From: a virus
Direction: 5' to 3' (one strand)
DNA: 46,356 nt
Virus record (IMG/VR): IMGVR_UViG_3300030098_006729
Location: 6,286 to 52,641 of that record
Position 1 is the stretch's first letter, and every line of letters starts with the position of its first letter. Of the stretch, positions 4,534-40,268 are shown in pieces. The position numbers and the translations under genes were made by a program. Under the pieces are notes generated by a model. The model made no database searches. It was not told the DNA's origin and saw nothing but the letters and a program-made list of their open reading frames with translations.

Positions 4534-5507
4534 AAACAGCACTGATAACAGGGATTACGGGACAAGACGGATCCTATTTAGCGGAATTGCTATTAAATAA
4601 AGGCTACAAAGTCGTAGGTGTTAAAAGACGCACATCGCTAATAGCCACAGATCGTATTGATAATATTTTTAATGATCCCGACCTGATTATGAATTTTGAT
4701 TTGGTCTATGGAAATATGAATGATTCAGGATGCCTTCACCGTCTTTTAATTGAACATAAGCCGGATGAAATATACAATCTTGCCGCCCAGTCTCATGTGC
4801 GTGTTTCTTTTGAAACCCCAGAAGAAACAACAGAATATGTTGCTATGGGTACACTACGTCTTTTGGAAGCATATAGAAATATTTGTCCCGAGGCAAAGTT
4901 TTATCAAGCGTCTTCATCCGAAATGTTTGGCGATAACCCTGAGAACCCGCAGAGTGAAACTACAAGACTTATGCCTGCGAGCCCTTATGCTTGCGCGAAG
5001 GTATATGCTCACAATCTTTGTAGAAATTACAGAGAAAGCTATGGACTTCACATTTCCAGTGGTATTCTTTTTAATCACGAATCTCCACGCCGTGGAGAGA
5101 CATTTGTCACCCGTAAAATTACCCAAGCAGCCGCGAATATAAAAATGGGCATACAAGATGACCTATTATTAGGTAACCTCGATGCTAAGAGAGACTGGGG
5201 CTTTGCAGGGGATTATGTGAAGGCAATGTGGCTCATGACACAACAGCAAACACCCGATGATTATGTTGTCGCGACAGGTGAAACTCACACAGTTAGAGAA
5301 TTTCTACAAGTTGTTTTTGATTATGCTGGACTTGACATAGACAAATATGTTAAGATTGATGAAAGACTTTTTAGACCTCACGAGGTTCCACTTTTGCTTG
5401 GTGATGCCACTAAGGCAAAAGAAAAGCTTGGCTGGGAACCAAAAGTAGACTTTGAGGGTCTTGCAAAGATGATGTATGACGCTGACTTAAGGGCACTATC
5501 AAAATGA
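4530..5507 (+). CDS. gmd: GDP-mannose 4,6-dehydratase
   Basis: 325 residues, very close to the Gmd family. [14 protein letters not shown] at the N-terminus is the NADP-binding loop; [31 protein letters not shown] (catalytic Ser/Thr and Glu region), [12 protein letters not shown] (Tyr-x3-Lys) and [19 protein letters not shown] follow in the usual order. It converts GDP-mannose to GDP-4-keto-6-deoxymannose, the branch point to fucose, rhamnose, perosamine and colitose. No mannose-1-phosphate guanylyltransferase gene is in the window, so GDP-mannose must come from the host or from upstream genes. Start ATG 4530 overlaps the preceding stop (ATGA), showing tight translational coupling. Confidence 0.95.
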
Positions 5508-5833
5508 GAAGAGTAAGTAAGCCTTGGGGGTATGAAATAATATGGGCTGAAACCGCAGATTATGTAGGCAAGATTCTGCATATTAATGCAGGACACAGAC
5601 TTTCAAAACAATATCATAAAATAAAAGAAGAAACTCTTTATGTTTTAAGTGGGGTACTATGTAATTACGGTGAAAATGAAGAGATTGAGCGTATTTACCC
5701 CGGCGAAGCTTTTCATGTTATACCAAACCAGATCCACCGTTTTGGTGCCCTTGAAAACGATGTAGAAGTCGTTGAGGTCAGTACACCACATTTGAATGAT
5801 GTTGTCAGACTTGATGATGATTATTCAAGATAA
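5504..5833 (+). CDS. Cupin protein similar to type II phosphomannose isomerase domain
   Basis: 109 residues forming one cupin barrel. [11 protein letters not shown] at residues 4-14, [21 protein letters not shown] near 31-51 and PNQIHRFGA near 85 match the C-terminal isomerase domain of ManC/PMI type II proteins. The metal ligands expected from the fold, His of QYH, Glu of KEET and His of IHR, are present. It could interconvert fructose-6-P and mannose-6-P to raise the GDP-mannose supply for Gmd, or it could act as a sugar 3,5-epimerase; the first fits the sequence better. It is the last gene of the sugar operon, overlaps gmd by ATGA, and is followed by a promoter for the next transcription unit. 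Confidence 0.8.
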
Positions 5834-6733: not shown

Positions 6734-7423
6734 ATGCCGAGAAAACGAAAAGCAGGTAAGCATTATTTTACCAAGGATCACGAAAACGCAATTATTGACT
6801 ATGTTGCCACCGATGATCAAAAGATAAGAACCCAACTATACATAGACTGGATAGGTCCAGCCTTTGATGAGATGGTGGATAAGATTGTATACACTTATAA
6901 ATTTACTACTCTCCCAAACATCGATGCGCTCAAAGACGAGTGCAAAGTCTGGCTGACAACAATCCTTGACAAATATGATCCAAGCAAGGGATCAAAAGCA
7001 TTCTCATATTTTAGTGTAATAACGAAAAACTGGTTTATTCACAAAGTAAAGAAGAATGCTAAGAGAGCCAGAACCGAGGTTCTTTATGATGAAATGCCAA
7101 AAGAGGTTGATAACGAACTTGTTACAACCAGTAACCCATATCACGAAGAACGAGAGGAATATGAGTTTTGGCAGTCCCTGTGGGGAGAGATAGAAAGCTG
7201 GGACACTGGAAATCTAAAAGAAAATGAGAAAAAAGTATTAGAAGCAATTAAAATATTGCTCGACTCAATTGATGAAGATACGATGATATATAACAAAAAA
7301 GCAATCTATCTTTATTTGCGAGAACTTACCGGACTTAATACAAAGCAAATTGTTAACAATCTTAATAAGCTTCGTGTCAAATACAGAATTTTTAAGAAAA
7401 ATTGGGTCAATGGCAAAATATAA
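6734..7423 (+). CDS. 55: Late transcription sigma factor, T4 gp55-like
   Basis: 229 residues. The stretch from residue 66 to 107 holds the gp55 signature: LKDECKVWL, then YDPSKGSKAFSYF, then ITKNWFIHKVKK, which corresponds to sigma region 2 that opens the -10 element. T4 gp55 is 185 residues and recognises only a TATAAATA-type -10 at late promoters, together with the sliding clamp and gp33. Here the C-terminal 60 residues (AIYLYLRELTGLNTKQIVNNLNKLRVKY) look like an additional helix-turn-helix. The acidic-hydrophobic clamp-binding tail of T4 gp55 is not evident; the protein ends in basic residues. It is the last gene of the 5886 operon and is immediately upstream of the structural block it would control. 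Confidence 0.88.
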   Translation: MPRKRKAGKHYFTKDHENAIIDYVATDDQKIRTQLYIDWIGPAFDEMVDKIVYTYKFTTLPNIDALKDECKVWLTTILDKYDPSKGSKAFSYFSVITKNWFIHKVKKNAKRARTEVLYDEMPKEVDNELVTTSNPYHEEREEYEFWQSLWGEIESWDTGNLKENEKKVLEAIKILLDSIDEDTMIYNKKAIYLYLRELTGLNTKQIVNNLNKLRVKYRIFKKNWVNGKI

Positions 7424-7447
7424 GCTTGATAACCTCTAATTAATATT

Positions 7448-7453
7448 GGAGGG
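7448..7453 (+). promoter_or_regulatory. Strong ribosome binding site for the Cys-rich peptide
   Basis: GGAGGG seven bases before ATG 7461, in a stretch with no other candidate start in range. This near-perfect Shine-Dalgarno is the main argument that the 20-codon frame is translated. Confidence 0.6.
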
Positions 7454-7460
7454 CTGAGTC

Positions 7461-7523
7461 ATGGAAAAATGCGCCTGCTGCGGCTGCGCCACACCTTGTC
7501 AGTGTGAATGTTGCTGTAAGTGA
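7461..7523 (+). CDS. 20-residue cysteine-rich microprotein (nine Cys)
   Basis: The frame reads MEKCACCGCATPCQCECCCK and stops at TGA 7521-7523. Nine of 20 residues are cysteine (4, 6, 7, 9, 13, 15, 17, 18, 19), giving overlapping CxC, CC and CCC motifs like those in metallothionein clusters. It starts at ATG with GGAGGG seven bases upstream, in an otherwise empty gap between the late sigma factor and the structural block. Both TGC and TGT are used, so the Cys content is not a simple nucleotide repeat. Likely roles are metal binding (Zn, Cu) or thiol chemistry; no homologue comes to mind. Too short for standard gene callers. Translation is inferred from the ribosome binding site and composition. 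Confidence 0.62.
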   Translation: MEKCACCGCATPCQCECCCK

Positions 7524-7529
7524 TTAAAA

Positions 7530-7592
7530 GTGCTCCATAGTAGTTAGCGATACTGTAAATAAATAAAAGTGCTTCTAATTATTATGGAGCAT
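7530..7592 (+). promoter_or_regulatory. 18-bp hairpin covering the RBS of the next gene
   Basis: Bases 7530-7547 (GTGCTCCATAGTAGTTAG) pair without interruption with 7575-7592 (CTAATTATTATGGAGCAT): 15 Watson-Crick pairs and 3 G-U pairs, loop of 27 bases (7548-7574). The 3' arm contains GGAG (7586-7589), the only Shine-Dalgarno for ATG 7598, so the folded RNA should block translation. There is no U-run after the stem, so it is not a standard terminator. A ten-base direct repeat, TAAAAGTGCT, occurs at 7525-7534 and in the loop at 7564-7573. The layout matches T4 gene e, where early read-through RNA is folded shut and late RNA starts inside the hairpin. Confidence 0.75.
7554..7561 (+). promoter_or_regulatory. 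Candidate T4-like late promoter in hairpin loop
   Basis: TGTAAATA matches the T4 late consensus TATAAATA at 7 of 8 positions. A start about 13 bases after its first base (near 7567) would give a transcript lacking the 5' arm of the hairpin, leaving the GGAG of the 7598 gene open. No -35 is needed by gp55-type factors. The matrix for this phage is unknown and AT-rich DNA gives chance matches, so this is a candidate supported mainly by its position. Confidence 0.45.
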
Positions 7593-7597
7593 ATATC

Positions 7598-7882
7598 ATG
7601 AAAAAAACAGACAACTATCTTGACGAAGCGATTGAAAACATCAGAAAAGATCGAGAGATTACAAAAGATCTGTTAAACGATTTAATTGTATACTTGAGCA
7701 AAGACGAAGCACGCCACACGGAAGTCGGCACCGTCGCAGCCAAATATGTTGAAACATTGCAAAGGTCCAATGAGCAGCTTGTTAAGCTTGTTACATTATT
7801 GGAAAAGAAAAAAAACACATCTGTTGGCTTAACCGAGGATGATAAGTCGGAAATCTTTGACTTACTCAATGGAGATCACTGA
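7598..7882 (+). CDS. Small helical protein, first gene of the structural block
   Basis: 94 residues, predicted almost fully alpha-helical: an N-terminal helix (YLDEAIENIRKDREITKD), a central one ending in YLSKDEARH, and VAAKYVETLQRSNEQLVKLVTLLEKKK, which has heptad-like spacing. A short acidic tail follows. I do not recognise it with certainty; its size, helicity and the RSNEQLVK-type helix would suit a small terminase subunit (T4 gp16 role) or an assembly helper, but the large terminase is not in this window. Its ribosome binding site GGAG is inside the 7530-7592 hairpin. The stop overlaps the next ATG as TGATG, so its translation should control or feed the next gene. Confidence 0.75.
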   Translation: MKKTDNYLDEAIENIRKDREITKDLLNDLIVYLSKDEARHTEVGTVAAKYVETLQRSNEQLVKLVTLLEKKKNTSVGLTEDDKSEIFDLLNGDH

Positions 7883-10520: not shown

Positions 10521-10528
10521 CTATTTAT
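10521..10528 (+). promoter_or_regulatory. CTATTTAT element upstream of virion gene
   Basis: One of three CTATTTAW octamers found in the short gaps before structural genes (10521, 16035, 36993), each within 5-32 bases of a start codon. It could mark late promoters or RNA processing sites. It does not match TATAAATA well. Confidence 0.25.
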
Positions 10529-10532
10529 TAAC

Positions 10533-11519
10533 ATGTCAAATATTCCAACAACATCATTAGTTTCAATGACAAATCGAATTTTTGCCGCTGCTGTGGATGA
10601 ACAAGGACTCGATACAGTTTCTGCCGCCGTTGTTGAAACCGCAGGTGTTGAGCCATCACTTAGAGTATCTGGTGTTAATAACGAACCAATTGTTGAACCG
10701 ATTGCTAAATATATTAGAGCCCCTGCCGAAAAGGTTTTAAAATATGGAAATTCATATATTGTTTTAGGTAGAGACCGCCCAGGCGCCCGCGATGAGGGAT
10801 ACGGCGGTAAAGGGCACACACATGCATCCTCGTTAGATCTTGTTGTGGGTCGAAATTCTTCGCTAATTAAGTCTGGATTAAACTATGATCCCAATTTTGC
10901 AGACGACGCTGCCCGACTTTATATAAGCCAGAAAACAGATATAGATGATAATTTTGGATTGCCTGTGGGTCGTCGCGCCGGACCTGCTTCAAGGGCTAGA
11001 TCCGCTGCTGCTTTAAAGGCTGATGCTGTTAGAATAATTGGAAGAGATAGTATAAAACTTGTTACCAGAACAGAGTCCACAAACTCCAGAGGTGGCACAG
11101 CCTCACATAATGGAATATATCTCATAGCCTCTAATGATAGTGCTAGACTTCAGCCAATGGTCAAGGGAAATTCACTTGTATCAAACCTTAAAGATATGGA
11201 TGATAGAATTCGTGAGCTTCATGCAATTGTATTAAAATTTCAAAAAGAACAGCACAAGTACAATATGAAATTAATGAATCACAACCATGCGCTTCCAGTC
11301 GTCTTCCCGCCTCCAGTAGGCGTTGTCCTCACTTATCCCCTTCGATCGGCGGCTTGGCAGGTCGGAGTGTTGCAACAAGGCGTTCAAACGGCACTAACAG
11401 CGGTAGAGTGCATAGTAGACAATTTTAAAAATAGAATCAATCTGGAACTTATGGAATTTAAATATCTGTCTGGTATCACCGGACAAGGTTTTAATAGTAG
11501 CTATAATAAGGTTAATTAA
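10533..11519 (+). CDS. Putative baseplate/tail structural protein
   Basis: 328 residues. The N-terminal 70 residues are small-residue rich. The middle has ADAVRIIGRDSIKLVTR near 170, a beta-strand-like stretch, then a long helix (NLKDMDDRIRELHAIVLKFQ, near 223-242) and a His/Pro-rich turn with MNHNH and VVFPPPVGV. The helix-turn pattern recurs in structural proteins of large marine phages as I remember them, but no function is known to me. Context (peptidase before, 1501-residue protein after, then gp25 and gp6) places it in the baseplate. It has no clear Shine-Dalgarno before ATG 10533; the stop overlaps the next ATG by one base. Confidence 0.62.
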   Translation: MSNIPTTSLVSMTNRIFAAAVDEQGLDTVSAAVVETAGVEPSLRVSGVNNEPIVEPIAKYIRAPAEKVLKYGNSYIVLGRDRPGARDEGYGGKGHTHASSLDLVVGRNSSLIKSGLNYDPNFADDAARLYISQKTDIDDNFGLPVGRRAGPASRARSAAALKADAVRIIGRDSIKLVTRTESTNSRGGTASHNGIYLIASNDSARLQPMVKGNSLVSNLKDMDDRIRELHAIVLKFQKEQHKYNMKLMNHNHALPVVFPPPVGVVLTYPLRSAAWQVGVLQQGVQTALTAVECIVDNFKNRINLELMEFKYLSGITGQGFNSSYNKVN

Positions 11520-28700: not shown

Positions 28701-29784
28701 ACAATCTATTGTGGATATGGTTGAATCTATGAAAAGATATCACTTTCCCCATTCTATGGATTTTATAAGATATTCTGATAAAGTTTCTCCGTTTACTATG
28801 TATATATTTGAATTTGAACATGAACTAACCAGAGAAGATGTTACTGATATTTGGCAAAATTTACCTCCTCGTATTGGAAGGGCATTTAATCCCGAAACCC
28901 CTCTTGAGACAAGTGAAGTAATGCAAACAAAAGAAGTTTCTCACGATTTGGCACCGGGTGAGTTATTAAACGCACCTCTCAAATCTAAGCTTCAATGGAT
29001 GGTTTTTAAAGTAAAACAAAAAGCCAAGAAAAATTATTATAAGAAATCGGTCGCATCAAGCCCCGTAACCCAGTTACCAACACCAGCCGAGGTAGCAACA
29101 TCATTTGATCCCAATGGTCTGGAAATGGGATCAGTTGTGACATCCAAACCAAGTATTACTGATCAACTTTCTAAAAAACCGGACGGCATATTTGAGTATC
29201 TTGCCGATGGAGCAGCACTGGGTGCAGCATCAAAAGACGAAGGCGGTTCCAATACAGAAGATTATCACATAACATATAATTGGCCATATGACTTTTTCTC
29301 ATTAGTAGAGATGGTAAAAATTGATCAAGAAGTTCAATTTAATACTGGAGAAAGCATGGCTTCAATTAGCGCAACTTCGGCAATGAGCTTTACAGATATT
29401 ACCAGTTATAACGAAGCGACACCAATTTCATTTGGGTTTAATAATAATTCATTGTCAGTTAGCTTTGAACAACAAAAAGCCGATATGATTAAAAAGTTTG
29501 AAATAGGAAAAGATTCTGCTTCTGTTATTGACGATATGGCATCCACTTTTGAAGATTATCAAAACGCTTACGAAAGAGGACTTTCGTTAGCCCAGGCGCA
29601 AGGCAGAGAGTCATATGGCGGATGGACGCAAACCAAAGGTCCAGCGGCTTTAACGACACGCGCTGTAATTAATTTTGAAGACCCAGGAAACCCCTCTGTT
29701 GTGTTCCGGGTAAAGTTTACGCCTAATGCATCAAAGACATCTTCCAAGGCTATAATTTCTAAAGTAATTACAAGGACAACCTAA
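19768..29784 (+). CDS. Giant virion protein (3338 residues) with two LamG-like domains
   Basis: One unbroken frame of 10 kb. Residues about 190-415 form a LamG/concanavalin-like domain: TVEFWLKTGS, DWQHYAFSF, TRLYVNGELSE, SGSIDEFRFWKTRRT and DLGVYYKFNEG. A second one lies at about 690-920: TLEAEVVFP, QKWNFAVRV, RVYVGSHKTNFTGS and RYWFDYVDDETIRNHAI. Between them, near 605-620, YKSKGTEKSFRNLIRCFGVG is reminiscent of the P2 gpI-type tail motif (GT-x-x-x-L-R-x-L). The rest is aromatic- and Gly/Ser-rich with no recognised family. It follows the gp6 region, so a giant wedge or host-contacting tail component is likely, with LamG modules binding glycans. The protein is far larger than T4 gp7 (1032 residues). 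Confidence 0.75.
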   Translation: MSIKDLFNKSSQVVVSSSLSDLSEDTESPEYISEFISEQDRVEPHIDFSDPANFSKYGSAQEYYEKSLEYIYDEYPYDGSLKEKIEWRNNASLLDIYLYDNRYPKSTGYGVFASDGWGTLAGSIVNGYGQPASSDYEYINVKGGPNSIYGSSLGTSSLHSVFDSKTNVFDDKVTGSSGPVSATRQSNLQTKLDSGVTVEFWLKTGSLDTALTEKQVVFDLWNGNASSSADYGRLRIEIDGTRASSPFMLTVLSGAVGLSTSSVEIGSNLNLNSFSDWQHYAFSFVNSGTDIVTRLYVNGELSETITTGSNISEIRDELEANIGALLTGTFNPSGDAFANLGSGKLSGSIDEFRFWKTRRTGKQIKRNYFTSDLGGGTNTDTANLDLGVYYKFNEGVTGDTTVDSVVLDYSGRISNGTWTGYPSSNARNTGSAISSASVGTEILDPIVRSTHPDVYSLQEELSLSGSLWDYENNSSLFYTMPSWIIDEDEGNQGTSGNLKKITQIMGSYFDNLDLLIGELPKINMASYPSSSVGHDGNPDKLHKLYPYGHTAIRSFGLSSPELFLNGDFLEYYRNRNETKEFEEDLYTVKSIIYNNIYNNLTNIYKSKGTEKSFRNLIRCFGVGDDVIRLNAYADNDVYKFETKRRADSVRTKAINLNHQDNFAGTVYQYADTSNPNSVSFISGSSAESLTLEDGFPMTLEAEVVFPKKISMRNAGSSTQEYTQITSSLFGMHTARATQDTSPTVTDITWAATDSANFQVFAIRDKIYSKDVKFMLTSSVPFPIPELTSSYYQNAYENQKWNFAVRVKPKGYPHSIASGSLDHTYDLEFYGVNYVADRKINEFTITGSLTKQVAETLLTSPKRVYVGSHKTNFTGSTLQFSDAMITSCRYWFDYVDDETIRNHAIDPDNFGLTRPSRNTYLEESDFPNIQVPGIDSLALYWDFQTVTGSNNGSGSPTTFDGKFVVEDVSSGSLELIGRYNWLGKILKYQHTGRGDGFPINSTGSVENLFLYSGRQQLPEIVFGDDNIRVFNREETEVFTRETRPIKTYYAFEKSMYQVISDEIINYFGSIADFNNLIGEPVHRYRQEYKSLNYLRQFFFERVGNTPDLDKFINYYKWIDSALSTMLMQLVPASAQVSDGIDNVVESHILERNKYRSKFPTLEFSASAPEGAAVTINKHLYSWERGHHPVSDLQSDNCFYWNQRAERDEGILTSSNSNVDADRNAILSASLQVFERKWNTPYRYKLEKNRVLHGGINYSENKKTNFYRGMNFPHGPLGPRHRFPFSHGAKGPKNILNAYNVNVVSLKDCNDDLTPKELQKIKYSFGTMNDRSPDSGSFDGIKGEIAMPFNILSGSPDLGGYNKLIQARFLANSQLVNLHSDAYGDRNETPMQGPFTEKYVGGHQYRHVRINNYDANRRGGDGELALNNLDGQYTRPEGWRIFLGGGFGGNGAISLTGPDYDGSTYPDPTRFRAWWWREETAKRPVNIRNILQTTASADSVLSGTLQFGAIGNYEKTYQVVQTSGRSKNNFWFNDVATSASLLPARFATNNPKTTNVLTLIGIRPFSSSSNGVSVIESRGNTFIPGAAQAPGDLTGTPITRAERSLGNQYEPFQNAVTSNRNVFPLPERSEQNAVIVERFSAPGGPEISSLGFLDVVAAEKSVYNALPFRNLSVRGSGSGENPSTLVSGSTMRVVDHQQNRRGLRTLHSLHAGPFGKDGTFGTIAANSYTSFPSFHKVNRNTSFRINLLQEPNNPTPGHAEHGMKDTFSTGSTFDNFFVQHPIPQNDFQYAWISASYSGSRPIGHAHRSGFASGTTAFIPAIDFLTASNVSGASLTPVDFAGLNVFFQLPTASFNQLSSSGALRDRSGVPTATGSINTAVDFFFADTNGEHITNGYLIHLNRGVGGFSSWKQINNQYHPLVKQFKKNNTYSIIDPDTERAALLSKRGKYRGYEWDGLKNNREIFGQKLKFQKAGVPTYRLTQDRNVLEFHEPAVERSFKPLRFTTYLEGNTAATIVAPYANQKKYFTNSKLNDKLGLDENSETSADLVLESFRGNLGLNKLINIQYSEKVYPAANNAYRSYVRERPTYDYERWKFLANDRRGNISMITGDDARGDERTFYLGEDRHFTTASVWRLDGPIELDLRPGEPSPVGDLKYIYGAVSTPQKAAASKGTLPSLANYDPSCGILQNVHTVVHTLGSSGSVSGIGRSRMITASCLYARPHTLATGSSAGSRTNGTNKRYPPSGSIAASTSGTGSGWGFWDGNVGVNPANGAATKDSLRIDQPISTFQGQSPWDAGNISGKYPFYNSYAEYAQEMKQLGKEYSILPEYRMSDRVEDYIINDVDPFTDTAILSLTGALANQTASNKPDFYRIYSHSDFMKYFDVLDAKVSDNVSIESTTLKVKCSAIIKLLPYDGFYPANRTVQLYELFSASYLPNVDMQFVGGGTVIGSVDLNHAANAMIRPFITPVFAPGVLYNTIKSGIAVDFPVLTGSVLSASAITGADTGPDVPPSAQRTGSTAGINWLIANPNFDYRVPFESLIEPEAHLANISFLDMEPHPSAAIPATASWNGNGDDRYKKAMHNFLAEVPEFFLENGTFTSFASSPSNNWRFEKGKTYKMRVQIRKSMDDPTGQKKIARIGYLAADQTPLDLITDSGIPQAVSGSETFVMYDRPTAFGPPSFGARLTNNNSAGARGAGSTTSIHGGCVHSGFGGGSLYGYNAPFTPAYYDGAAWVDLEVTPGFESPTFDELISQMTSSYLRYKGVSGADWADNVDHAGEDLGPQAGARMNDNANQISSSVNIFGKARYFDPNTQEQDERWIIQTKFETPMLNFIDQHLHEKLTPVAIDTNTGSTTLNQPGSFGSLLTRPIGMWHQYGRMPQGDEGVFLEVIDHPDVAQRNRANEIGTGSFFSMADALNMPKESQRLGTPAETKMIREAVVAVPFYEEYDQESGSNQRKFFAIDKNQIDYILGRNPELSTQKPQQSIVDMVESMKRYHFPHSMDFIRYSDKVSPFTMYIFEFEHELTREDVTDIWQNLPPRIGRAFNPETPLETSEVMQTKEVSHDLAPGELLNAPLKSKLQWMVFKVKQKAKKNYYKKSVASSPVTQLPTPAEVATSFDPNGLEMGSVVTSKPSITDQLSKKPDGIFEYLADGAALGAASKDEGGSNTEDYHITYNWPYDFFSLVEMVKIDQEVQFNTGESMASISATSAMSFTDITSYNEATPISFGFNNNSLSVSFEQQKADMIKKFEIGKDSASVIDDMASTFEDYQNAYERGLSLAQAQGRESYGGWTQTKGPAALTTRAVINFEDPGNPSVVFRVKFTPNASKTSSKAIISKVITRTT

Positions 29785-29791
29785 TTAAGAT

Positions 29792-30901
29792 ATGGAGTTT
29801 TTTAATAAAAAAGAAGAAGTTATAGATTTGCAACTTACTCAGTATGGCAAATTTCTTTTATCAAAAGGAAGGCTTAAGCCCGTTTTTTATGCTTTTTATG
29901 ATGAAAATATAGTTTATGACTCAAATTATGTTGGCTTTTCTGAAACTCAAAATGAAGCTGAAGGTCGAATTCAAAACAATACTCCGAACACAAAAGTAGT
30001 TCATAATTTTCACAGCATTGAAGATGATATGGTAAGAGCGGTTGAAATTAAAAATTCTGGAGATCCTGCGTTGGCTCAATTAATGTTGCAACAAACTCCC
30101 GATAAGTCTCAAGTTCTGACCAATCCTTTGGCAAACTCTGAAATAGCAACAGATAAAATTCCATCTTGGAGTTTATCTTTATTGTCTGGCAAGATTTTGA
30201 CTGGATCAACAACACCAACTTTAACATTGAGTGGTTCTGGCACCATCTTAGATATACCACAAATTGAAGTCGAAATGATATACGAAGTAAAAGTCGTAGA
30301 AGGTGAGCCGCGATCCGAAGAAGATCAACAAGCCATACAAGATGGTCTTTATGATGGAATACCTCAAGGGGTGCTGGAAAACATGTTAGATACCGATAGT
30401 ATATCTCAAATATATGATATTAGGGAATATAAAGACGGTTCGTATTTTAAAGCAGATCATATTGGAACAAATGGAACAGTTGTGTTACAAATTATTGAAC
30501 AAAATGTACCACAAGGTAACGACAATTTTGAAATTGAATTTTTTGAAATAGAAGATGTGGAAAAATTAGGTGCCTCAAACACAACAAAAATAACACAACT
30601 AAATCAATTAAGACTACTTGAGGAACCAGATTTAATTGTTGACAACATTTTAATTGATCAAGCGGAGGGTAGATCACTTCCTGTGTCCCAAATAGATAGT
30701 AGTTTTGCTGATTATTATTTTGATGTATTGGCTGATAGTCAAATAAGTGACGCTTTTGTGTGTAATTTATTAAGCAGTGGCGACGAGGATTTGTACAAAT
30801 TTGCTCGTAAAGACTTTATATGTCCCGATAATGAACAACAATATCTGATTACCAACCCTTATTCTCAGAAAAATAGCGACTCTTGTGGAGATGATGGATA
30901 A
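29792..30901 (+). CDS. Virion protein with LTQYGKFLLSKG N-terminal motif
   Basis: 369 residues. The N-terminus carries VIDLQLTQYGKFLLSKGRLK and PVFYAFYDENIVYD, a block I remember from structural proteins of large marine phages. A similar pattern (D-x-x-LT-x-x-G-R/K-x-x-L-x-KG ... FA-x-D-D/E-x-I-x-Y) occurs at the start of the 37025 gene product, which suggests a shared domain. The middle is rich in acidic residues; the C-terminus has two cysteines near the end (FICPDNE and SDSCGDDG). It probably sits in the tail or baseplate; no enzymatic motif. Coupled to the next gene by TAATG. Confidence 0.65.
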   Translation: MEFFNKKEEVIDLQLTQYGKFLLSKGRLKPVFYAFYDENIVYDSNYVGFSETQNEAEGRIQNNTPNTKVVHNFHSIEDDMVRAVEIKNSGDPALAQLMLQQTPDKSQVLTNPLANSEIATDKIPSWSLSLLSGKILTGSTTPTLTLSGSGTILDIPQIEVEMIYEVKVVEGEPRSEEDQQAIQDGLYDGIPQGVLENMLDTDSISQIYDIREYKDGSYFKADHIGTNGTVVLQIIEQNVPQGNDNFEIEFFEIEDVEKLGASNTTKITQLNQLRLLEEPDLIVDNILIDQAEGRSLPVSQIDSSFADYYFDVLADSQISDAFVCNLLSSGDEDLYKFARKDFICPDNEQQYLITNPYSQKNSDSCGDDG

Positions 30902-39057: not shown

Positions 39058-39083
39058 TAATTTAATATCTACTTACTAACATA

Positions 39084-40268
39084 ATGGCGTATAAAAAATT
39101 TAAAAACAACGACATCTTTAGAAATACGTTGGAGATGAATCCTGAATTTGATTTCATAATTAATGATAGCAGGATATTCCTTAATGGAAGAGGAACGGTT
39201 GCGGGGTCGCATGTTGCCAACGCGGGCGATGTGCCAACTGGGCATGTTAGTTTATACGAGTTAAATGTCGATAGACCTACCGGACAAAAGATATATCCAT
39301 TTATAACCAAAGGCGGCACGCTTTCGTCTTTCAGGACAGTTAGTAATTCAACTTTTCGACAATTTGTATACGGCGATGAAATTACTAGTTCTTACCCAAT
39401 GTCCGCAAGTATTGTTCGAGAATTTTTCGCTTCAACAGCCACTTCGAGAACTGGATCAAATAATCATTTAAATTCTCTCAAAAATACGTTAAACTATTAT
39501 ACTCCACATAGCCGACATTATGAGTTTAGCGGCGCTTTTGGGGATAAAGGGACACAAGATGTAAACCTTATCAGTATTCCATCGATTATTTTTGGTTCAC
39601 AAATTAAAAAAGGCACTGTTAATTTGCAGTTCTATGTCAGTGGAACACTTATTGCACAATGTAAAGATGAAAATAGAGATGGCGAACTTATCCAAGTTGG
39701 ACCCCCTGGCACAACAAACTCAGGCTCCGTTGCAGGCGTCGTGTTATATAATGAAGGTTTTGTTTTATTGACTGGAAGTTGGGATATGGCTACTGGACCT
39801 TATGCTACATTTGCCGGAGAAAAATATACTGGCTCACCTGTTTTAAAACCAAAGTGGATTTACTTTGGAGCCGGAGCCAATGATGGACTTGCAAAAGGAA
39901 ATGTGATATCATCTAGTTTCGGTCTTACTTTTAAAGGCACTACAAAAACACAAACAATTATGATGCTGGCGCATGCACAAAAAGGAGAGTTTAATCACTC
40001 CAACAATCCAACTTTTAAAACCTTTGGTCAAGGACAGCAACCAATGACTGCCTCTAATGCGTATGTCGAGCCCAACGATCTTACAATTAAAAATATCGCA
40101 TCCTCTTCGTATTCAGATCCATATGCAGATTTTAAAAAGACAACATACATATCTTCGGTAGCAATCTACGACGAGAACAAAAACTTAATCGGTATTGCAA
40201 AACTTGCAACTCCAGTTAAAAAAACCGAAGACATAGAATATACATTTAAAATGAAATTAGACATTTAA
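39084..40268 (+). CDS. Virion protein, paralogue B (shared C-terminal domain)
   Basis: 394 residues. The C-terminal 110 residues run AQKGEFNHSNNPTFKTFG, then TTYISSVAIYDENKNLIGIA and KLATPVKK-x-x-x-x-x-YTFKMKLDI, matching the previous protein motif by motif. The N-terminal region differs and contains GRGTVAGSHVANAGDVPTGH. The pair probably arose by duplication followed by replacement or divergence of the N-terminal part. A structural role in the tail is inferred from position at the end of the virion block. No good Shine-Dalgarno precedes ATG 39084. Confidence 0.68.
   Translation: MAYKKFKNNDIFRNTLEMNPEFDFIINDSRIFLNGRGTVAGSHVANAGDVPTGHVSLYELNVDRPTGQKIYPFITKGGTLSSFRTVSNSTFRQFVYGDEITSSYPMSASIVREFFASTATSRTGSNNHLNSLKNTLNYYTPHSRHYEFSGAFGDKGTQDVNLISIPSIIFGSQIKKGTVNLQFYVSGTLIAQCKDENRDGELIQVGPPGTTNSGSVAGVVLYNEGFVLLTGSWDMATGPYATFAGEKYTGSPVLKPKWIYFGAGANDGLAKGNVISSSFGLTFKGTTKTQTIMMLAHAQKGEFNHSNNPTFKTFGQGQQPMTASNAYVEPNDLTIKNIASSSYSDPYADFKKTTYISSVAIYDENKNLIGIAKLATPVKKTEDIEYTFKMKLDI

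Follow-up and report, generated by a model that had tools for sequence, protein, structure and literature searches.

A cysteine-rich microgene and its probable late-expressed cassette in uncultured marine T4-like phages

Introduction

Metallothioneins include some very small proteins, for example a fungal copper metallothionein of about 25 residues, and the beta domain of vertebrate metallothionein is a nine-cysteine M3S9 unit. Late transcription in bacteriophage T4 depends on promoters whose single element sits roughly one helical turn ahead of the start; in phage Aeh1, the C of this element lies at -12 (PMC2988020). The T4 late genes e, soc, 49, I-TevI, and segB, as well as mobE of Aeh1, combine a late promoter with a hairpin that sequesters the ribosome-binding site (PMC2988022, PMC3014915). 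In mycobacteria, short open reading frames (ORFs) with polycysteine runs act as cysteine-responsive attenuators (Canestrari et al. 2020, as described in PMC9031893). Here, we compare these systems with a 20-codon ORF in the window, which is the whole 46,356-nt stretch of viral DNA that was analysed. Judged from its sequence and that of its relatives, this ORF is a genuine gene of a marine T4-like phage.

The microgene and its genomic setting

The microgene (7461..7523, + strand) encodes the 20-residue peptide MEKCACCGCATPCQCECCCK, in which nine cysteines (45%) are arranged in the motifs CxCCxC and CxCxCCC. A Shine-Dalgarno (SD) sequence, GGAGGG (7448..7453, + strand), ends seven bases 5' of the ATG. 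The frame, its cysteine content and motifs, and the SD with its spacing had been listed in an earlier note on this DNA and were reproduced on re-reading. The same note considered the cysteine density very unlikely to arise by chance, and when the window was Markov-shuffled 40 times, the richest stop-free stretch of 20 codons held 5-7 cysteines and never nine. The upstream neighbour (6734..7423, + strand) is a divergent T4 gp55-like late sigma factor gene of 229 aa (PHROG 234, E 2.4e-6), and the next gene (7598..7882, + strand; 94 aa) has no confident family match. The 52.6-kb uncultured virus record has further T4-like features, namely a baseplate wedge protein and an SbcC-like recombination protein in addition to the gp55-like sigma. 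A link between the peptide and cysteine metabolism through a cupin at 5504-5833 ('cysteine dioxygenase' in PHROGs) was rejected because the nearest Pfam matches are sugar-isomerase cupins and the cupin follows a nucleotide-sugar epimerase.

With the sigma protein as the anchor, at least 80 related loci were gathered. A search beside gp55 homologues for short Cys-rich frames had been proposed as a check, and the 80 sigma-gene relatives listed contain no comparable microgene in the gap that follows the sigma gene. In the closest relatives among the matches listed (L001-L005, sigma identity 88-97%), the gap is 37 nt long and holds no microgene ORF, whereas it is 174 nt in the window. In alignment with these five loci, the window has a clean additional segment about 139 nt long (7431..7569, + strand), the ends of which are approximate because the leader motif is duplicated: the relatives' spacer motif CTTCTAATTATTATGGAGCA..ATG is present twice, in modified form before the microgene and again before the native gene at 7598. 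Besides the window, one sister contig, L300, has the insertion, and the two peptides differ by one amino acid. The placement between late sigma and virion genes that had been described therefore holds for these two contigs but is not the usual site of the family. The microgene is a cassette with no fixed place beside the sigma gene. Loci with the same gap but with stops or frame breaks, which would have spoken against a gene, were sought and not found; every locus has either an intact ORF or a clean absence of the cassette.

A probable late promoter

The element CTAATTA (7436..7442, + strand) lies 25 nt before the microgene ATG and is a probable late promoter on the grounds of motif enrichment and a constant offset in the family. 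The first G of the GGAGGG at 7448 is 12 nt past the C of this element, where transcription would be expected to start. Among the 7-mers upstream of genes in the window and in the relatives gathered with the sigma protein, the most over-represented are CTAATTA (17 found against 1.5 expected) and CTATTTA (15 against 1.5), and the preferred distances of CTANTTA to the start codon are 12, 15, and 25 nt. All 23 sigma-linked or RNA-linked microgenes have the element upstream at 24-25 nt from the ATG and 12 nt from the GGAG, three of them as the variant CTANNTA; it is at 27 nt in L261 and is missing in L223 and L306, which belong to another setting. Recurrence at a fixed upstream distance in a phage that itself encodes gp55 indicates that CTANTTA is probably the gp55-type late promoter of this lineage, and from its spacing we infer that the microgene RNA starts at the SD. 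The sequence TATAAATA was ruled out as the late promoter here since it has no association with genes.

CTANTTA is also found 11-15 nt before many start codons, leaving no room for an SD (window 10521-10533, 29781-29792, and 39069-39084; L001-L080). Its position at -12 from the ATG leads to the prediction of leaderless late mRNAs in a T4-like lineage.

A conserved family of cysteine microgenes

A first scan of 2.9 million viral contigs with the pattern GGAG-ATG-xx-CxCCxC recovered the same 20-aa protein in 16 further uncultured virus contigs, mostly as M[EKD]KC[EDNA]CCGCx[AT]PCxC[EDN]CCCK. It also yielded relatives of 18-24 aa and shorter Cys peptides of 12 and 15-16 aa; about 12 relatives of 12-21 aa have 6-9 Cys, and one 12-mer is MEKCDCCNCECC. 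A second scan without the SD requirement returned only loci that were already known, and thus every member of the 20-aa family has a GGAG SD. All nine cysteines, G8, P12, and K20 are invariant in 17 of 17 20-aa sequences; the Cys conservation of class I is in part the product of hit selection, because several queries demanded Cys, and no query demanded C19, K20, or the stop. The Cys codons alternate between TGT and TGC, and the Gly and Pro codons vary as well. The synonymous/non-synonymous comparison that had been suggested, made with the 16 same-length homologues, gives a summed pairwise pN/pS of 0.16 (pN 0.096, pS 0.585) with silent third-position changes, which points to conservation at the protein level.

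The bias from Cys-demanding queries is limited by two further searches. A promoter-anchored pattern consisting of CTANTTA, GGAGG, ATG, and one Cys only gave 27 matches, 22 of which are intact ORFs of 12-21 aa with 6-9 Cys; four others are longer Cys-containing proteins, one is a 34-aa frame, and none is a decayed copy. A census anchored on a structured RNA that follows many of the microgenes gave 28 matches, two of them to an unrelated RNA, and among the remaining 26 loci the microgene is intact in 18, absent from eight, and broken in none. Class II (MENCDKCGCSCPCECECCCK and relatives; L313, L316, L317, L325, and L329) was recovered through the RNA anchor or the one-Cys query; it has lost Cys6 and gained Cys11 and still has nine cysteines. 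Matches to a loose Cys-spacing pattern were mostly simple repeats and chance frames and were discarded. About 30 uncultured phage loci, including the window, have an intact cassette. The expectation that the gene is widespread yet unannotated was right as to the many phage contigs and a size too small for gene callers; its place, however, is beside tmRNA, tRNA, or structured RNA and not beside gp55.

A metallothionein-like peptide as the preferred reading

We consider it fairly likely that the locus is a self-contained late cassette of about 100 nt which makes a metallothionein-like thiol peptide. In it, the late promoter CTANTTA would be followed by a 13-nt leader that opens with the SD GGAGG and then by the 20-codon ORF. 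Late in infection, the gp55-like sigma would recognise CTANTTA and direct transcription from the first G of GGAGG, and translation of this RNA would yield a peptide of 20 residues and nine thiols. Most likely, this peptide would fold round a small metal-thiolate cluster, for which nine cysteines would be a fitting number with three divalent metals or with several Cu(I) ions. As a miniature metallothionein, it might benefit the phage by buffering or sequestering Zn or Cu during virion assembly, or it might serve as a thiol sink. The cassette has been acquired or lost at several sites in the genome, and in the window it would have been inserted between the sigma gene and the gene at 7598, whose T4-style hairpin would now have its 5' arm within the extra segment.

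The peptides are short and dominated by cysteines in CxC, CC, and CCC motifs, and they have no aromatic residues. Every 20-aa member, including class II, has nine cysteines, and shorter ones have 6-9. Protein-level selection, a constant number of cysteines although one has moved, interleaved acidic residues, and the lack of a constant downstream target together favour a peptide that acts in trans. A metal-binding or thiol peptide, as first proposed, remains the best inference. A special tie to the zinc-ribbon protein or the primase zinc site, which had also been suggested, finds no backing, as the members have no such common neighbour.

The hairpin over the start of the next gene

The earlier note placed a hairpin six bases after the microgene stop, and its start at 7530 was confirmed. 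The 5' arm GTGCTCCATAGTAGTTAG (7530..7547, + strand) is a near inverted copy of the promoter/SD region of the next gene, and its mismatches to a perfect complement become G-U pairs in the + strand RNA. The 3' arm (7575..7592, + strand) holds CTAATTA at 7575-7581, a probable late promoter, and GGAG at 7586-7589, the SD of the gene at 7598. The predicted 18-bp stem has a folding energy of -35 kcal/mol for 7510-7620 with a z of -7.0 (-6.2 in another calculation); the z of the L300 stem is -7.8. No U tract follows the hairpin. In the prediction, the SD is paired on read-through RNA, and RNA from 7586, where the putative late transcript would begin, excludes the 5' arm and does not refold over the SD. 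For L001-L005, where the insertion is absent, folding predicts a shorter hairpin (z about -2 to -2.5); one of its arms contains the same SD, and the promoter element lies at its loop. The switch is therefore probably older than the insertion, with which it would have been rebuilt. On these folding predictions, the hairpin can be explained as a matter separate from the microgene, namely a T4-style late-gene SD lock for the gene at 7598.

Neighbouring RNA genes and alternative explanations

The majority of cassettes directly precede a tmRNA, a tRNA, or a structured RNA of about 95 nt. The tmRNA starts within about 10 nt of the microgene stop in five loci (L258, L271, L279, L287, and L309), and tRNA-Asn comes next in L234 and L332. 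In most class I and class II members, the conserved RNA of about 95 nt comes after the microgene, and tRNA-Asn or tRNA-Thr usually lies on the far side of this RNA. The window and L300, where no tRNA or tmRNA is nearby, depart from this pattern. The recurrence beside tmRNA and tRNA genes hints at a role linked to translation, beyond metal binding alone, and because of this neighbourhood such a role is the main rival to our preferred reading. A thiol or zinc peptide whose target late in infection is the ribosome, a translation factor, or the maturation of tmRNA/tRNA would explain why tmRNA, tRNA-Asn, or structured RNA, the last usually followed by tRNA-Asn, so often comes next. The two exceptional contigs speak against it, and the RNA region may merely tolerate insertion, as eight of the 26 structured-RNA loci have no microgene. 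We regard this explanation as unlikely, though it is the strongest of the alternatives.

A second alternative, which had been raised in the earlier note, is a leader peptide responsive to cysteine supply: scarce Cys-tRNA would slow the ribosomes, alter the hairpin, and change expression of the next gene. The short ORF, whose translation is supported by its conservation, does contain contiguous Cys codons, a strong hairpin begins six bases past its stop, and attenuators of this kind are known from mycobacteria (PMC9031893). However, the elements downstream of the members are unrelated (a virion-region gene, tmRNA, tRNA-Asn, or structured RNA), and there is no conserved regulated downstream gene among them. 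Residues other than Cys are not free either, as G8, P12, and K20 are invariant while their codons change synonymously, the Gly and Pro codons among them. The varied downstream elements and the conserved non-Cys residues make an attenuator improbable. The hairpin itself, with no U tract after it, is accounted for by the T4-style SD lock, and L001-L005, which the cassette does not interrupt, are already predicted to fold a hairpin over the same SD.

It is slightly less probable again that the ORF serves only translational coupling, in which ribosomes stopping at 7523 would melt the hairpin and the peptide would be a by-product. The microgene stop is indeed six bases ahead of the stem, and structures that mask the ribosome-binding site regulate T4 late genes (PMC2988022, PMC3014915), but the protein is under selection, the same peptide occurs where no downstream ORF is close, and transcripts started late at the 3'-arm promoter would have no 5' arm to melt. 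A chance ORF in a non-coding spacer, for which only its length of 20 codons and its absence from the closest sigma relatives among the matches listed could speak, can be set aside, as it is contradicted by homologues, silent variation, an invariant SD, the promoter spacing, and zero broken copies.

Several observations concern the neighbouring elements themselves. The RNA of about 95 nt (GCGCTGTTCTGCTCGC..., at L210:12344-12440) has two-sided compensatory changes at three pairs, and equivalents are present in L206, L215, L221, L222, L235, L239, L247, L259, L267, L286, L313-L320, L324, and L325. No credible Rfam family was found for it or for the window hairpin, and the RNA is apparently undescribed. 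In the tmRNA regions of L287 and L309, the Rfam permuted tmRNA model also matches at the microgene end, and in L309 this match overlaps the standard tmRNA match. In L223, L306, and L261, a second frame, with CxCDPCxCxW, overlaps or directly adjoins a microgene of 21-24 aa, an arrangement that suggests a two-gene Cys pair of another phage group. A separate family of 15-16 aa, MSKCKCCKCCNCTCC(G), has no CTANTTA promoter (L216, L249, L294, L232, L256, L266, L276, L281, L304, L307, and L308), and several of its members precede a gene starting HIVFSYGRMNPPTAGH that looks nucleotidyltransferase-like by eye. In L273 and L291, a 16-aa Cys microgene is followed by an RNA resembling, by eye, a glutamine riboswitch (GACGGAAGTAG...GAAGGAACGC).

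Novelty and significance

The peptide has no match in Pfam or among PDB chains, searches in which a 20-residue query has almost no power. A tblastn search with it against isolated phages returned nothing, a null that is uninformative because low-complexity masking affects such queries. No isolate with the window region, class I, the 15-mers, or the structured RNA turned up in searches by DNA or by neighbouring proteins, and the class I pattern is missing from the GTDB bacterial and archaeal genomes scanned. Literature searches, whose incomplete coverage makes absence weak evidence, found no description of the family. These microgenes are apparently an undescribed family of tiny, probably metal-binding, late-expressed cassettes. 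Gene callers miss ORFs of 12-21 codons, and a conserved phage family can therefore escape annotation.

The finding amounts to protein-level selection on a minimal promoter-SD-ORF unit that travels among uncultured marine viruses. If metal binding proves true, phages in metal-poor ocean water would carry a metallothionein-like peptide of their own and make it while virions are assembled, and the possibility of synthesising the peptide makes this idea directly testable. A bolder proposal, which we put forward only tentatively, is that these are among the smallest autonomous phage genes: mobile late cassettes of about 100 nt encoding metal-thiolate peptides of 12-21 residues beside tmRNA and tRNA, which would control the metal or thiol supply for late translation in marine T4-like phages. 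Anchored searches, with a promoter, an SD, and one Cys or with an RNA gene and an upstream ORF, provide a recipe for finding other micro-cassettes.

Comparison with known systems

The mycobacterial polycysteine attenuators (PMC9031893) resemble the locus in having a short ORF, contiguous Cys codons, and RNA structure downstream. In contrast to them, the phage ORF is led by an SD, its non-Cys residues are conserved, its downstream genes are unrelated, and the cassette is gained and lost. The likeness to T4-type late promoters (TATAAATA in T4; a/gC at -13/-12 in Aeh1, PMC2988020) lies in a single -10-like element with a C at -12, a fixed distance to the expected start, and a gp55-like sigma encoded by the phage, although the element here is CTANTTA and many genes have it at -12 from the ATG. 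Like the T4 hairpins that sequester ribosome-binding sites, the structure at 7530-7592 is predicted to hide the SD on read-through RNA and to lose its 5' arm on RNA from the proximal promoter; unlike them, it has CTAATTA in place of TATAAATA, carries the promoter inside its 3' arm, and sits after a microgene cassette. With respect to metallothioneins, the peptides differ in being phage-encoded, only 12-21 aa long, under a probable late promoter, and without a detectable Pfam or PDB match, and their metal binding is putative. They share with metallothioneins a very small size, CxC and CC motifs, the lack of aromatic residues, and a conserved number of cysteines.
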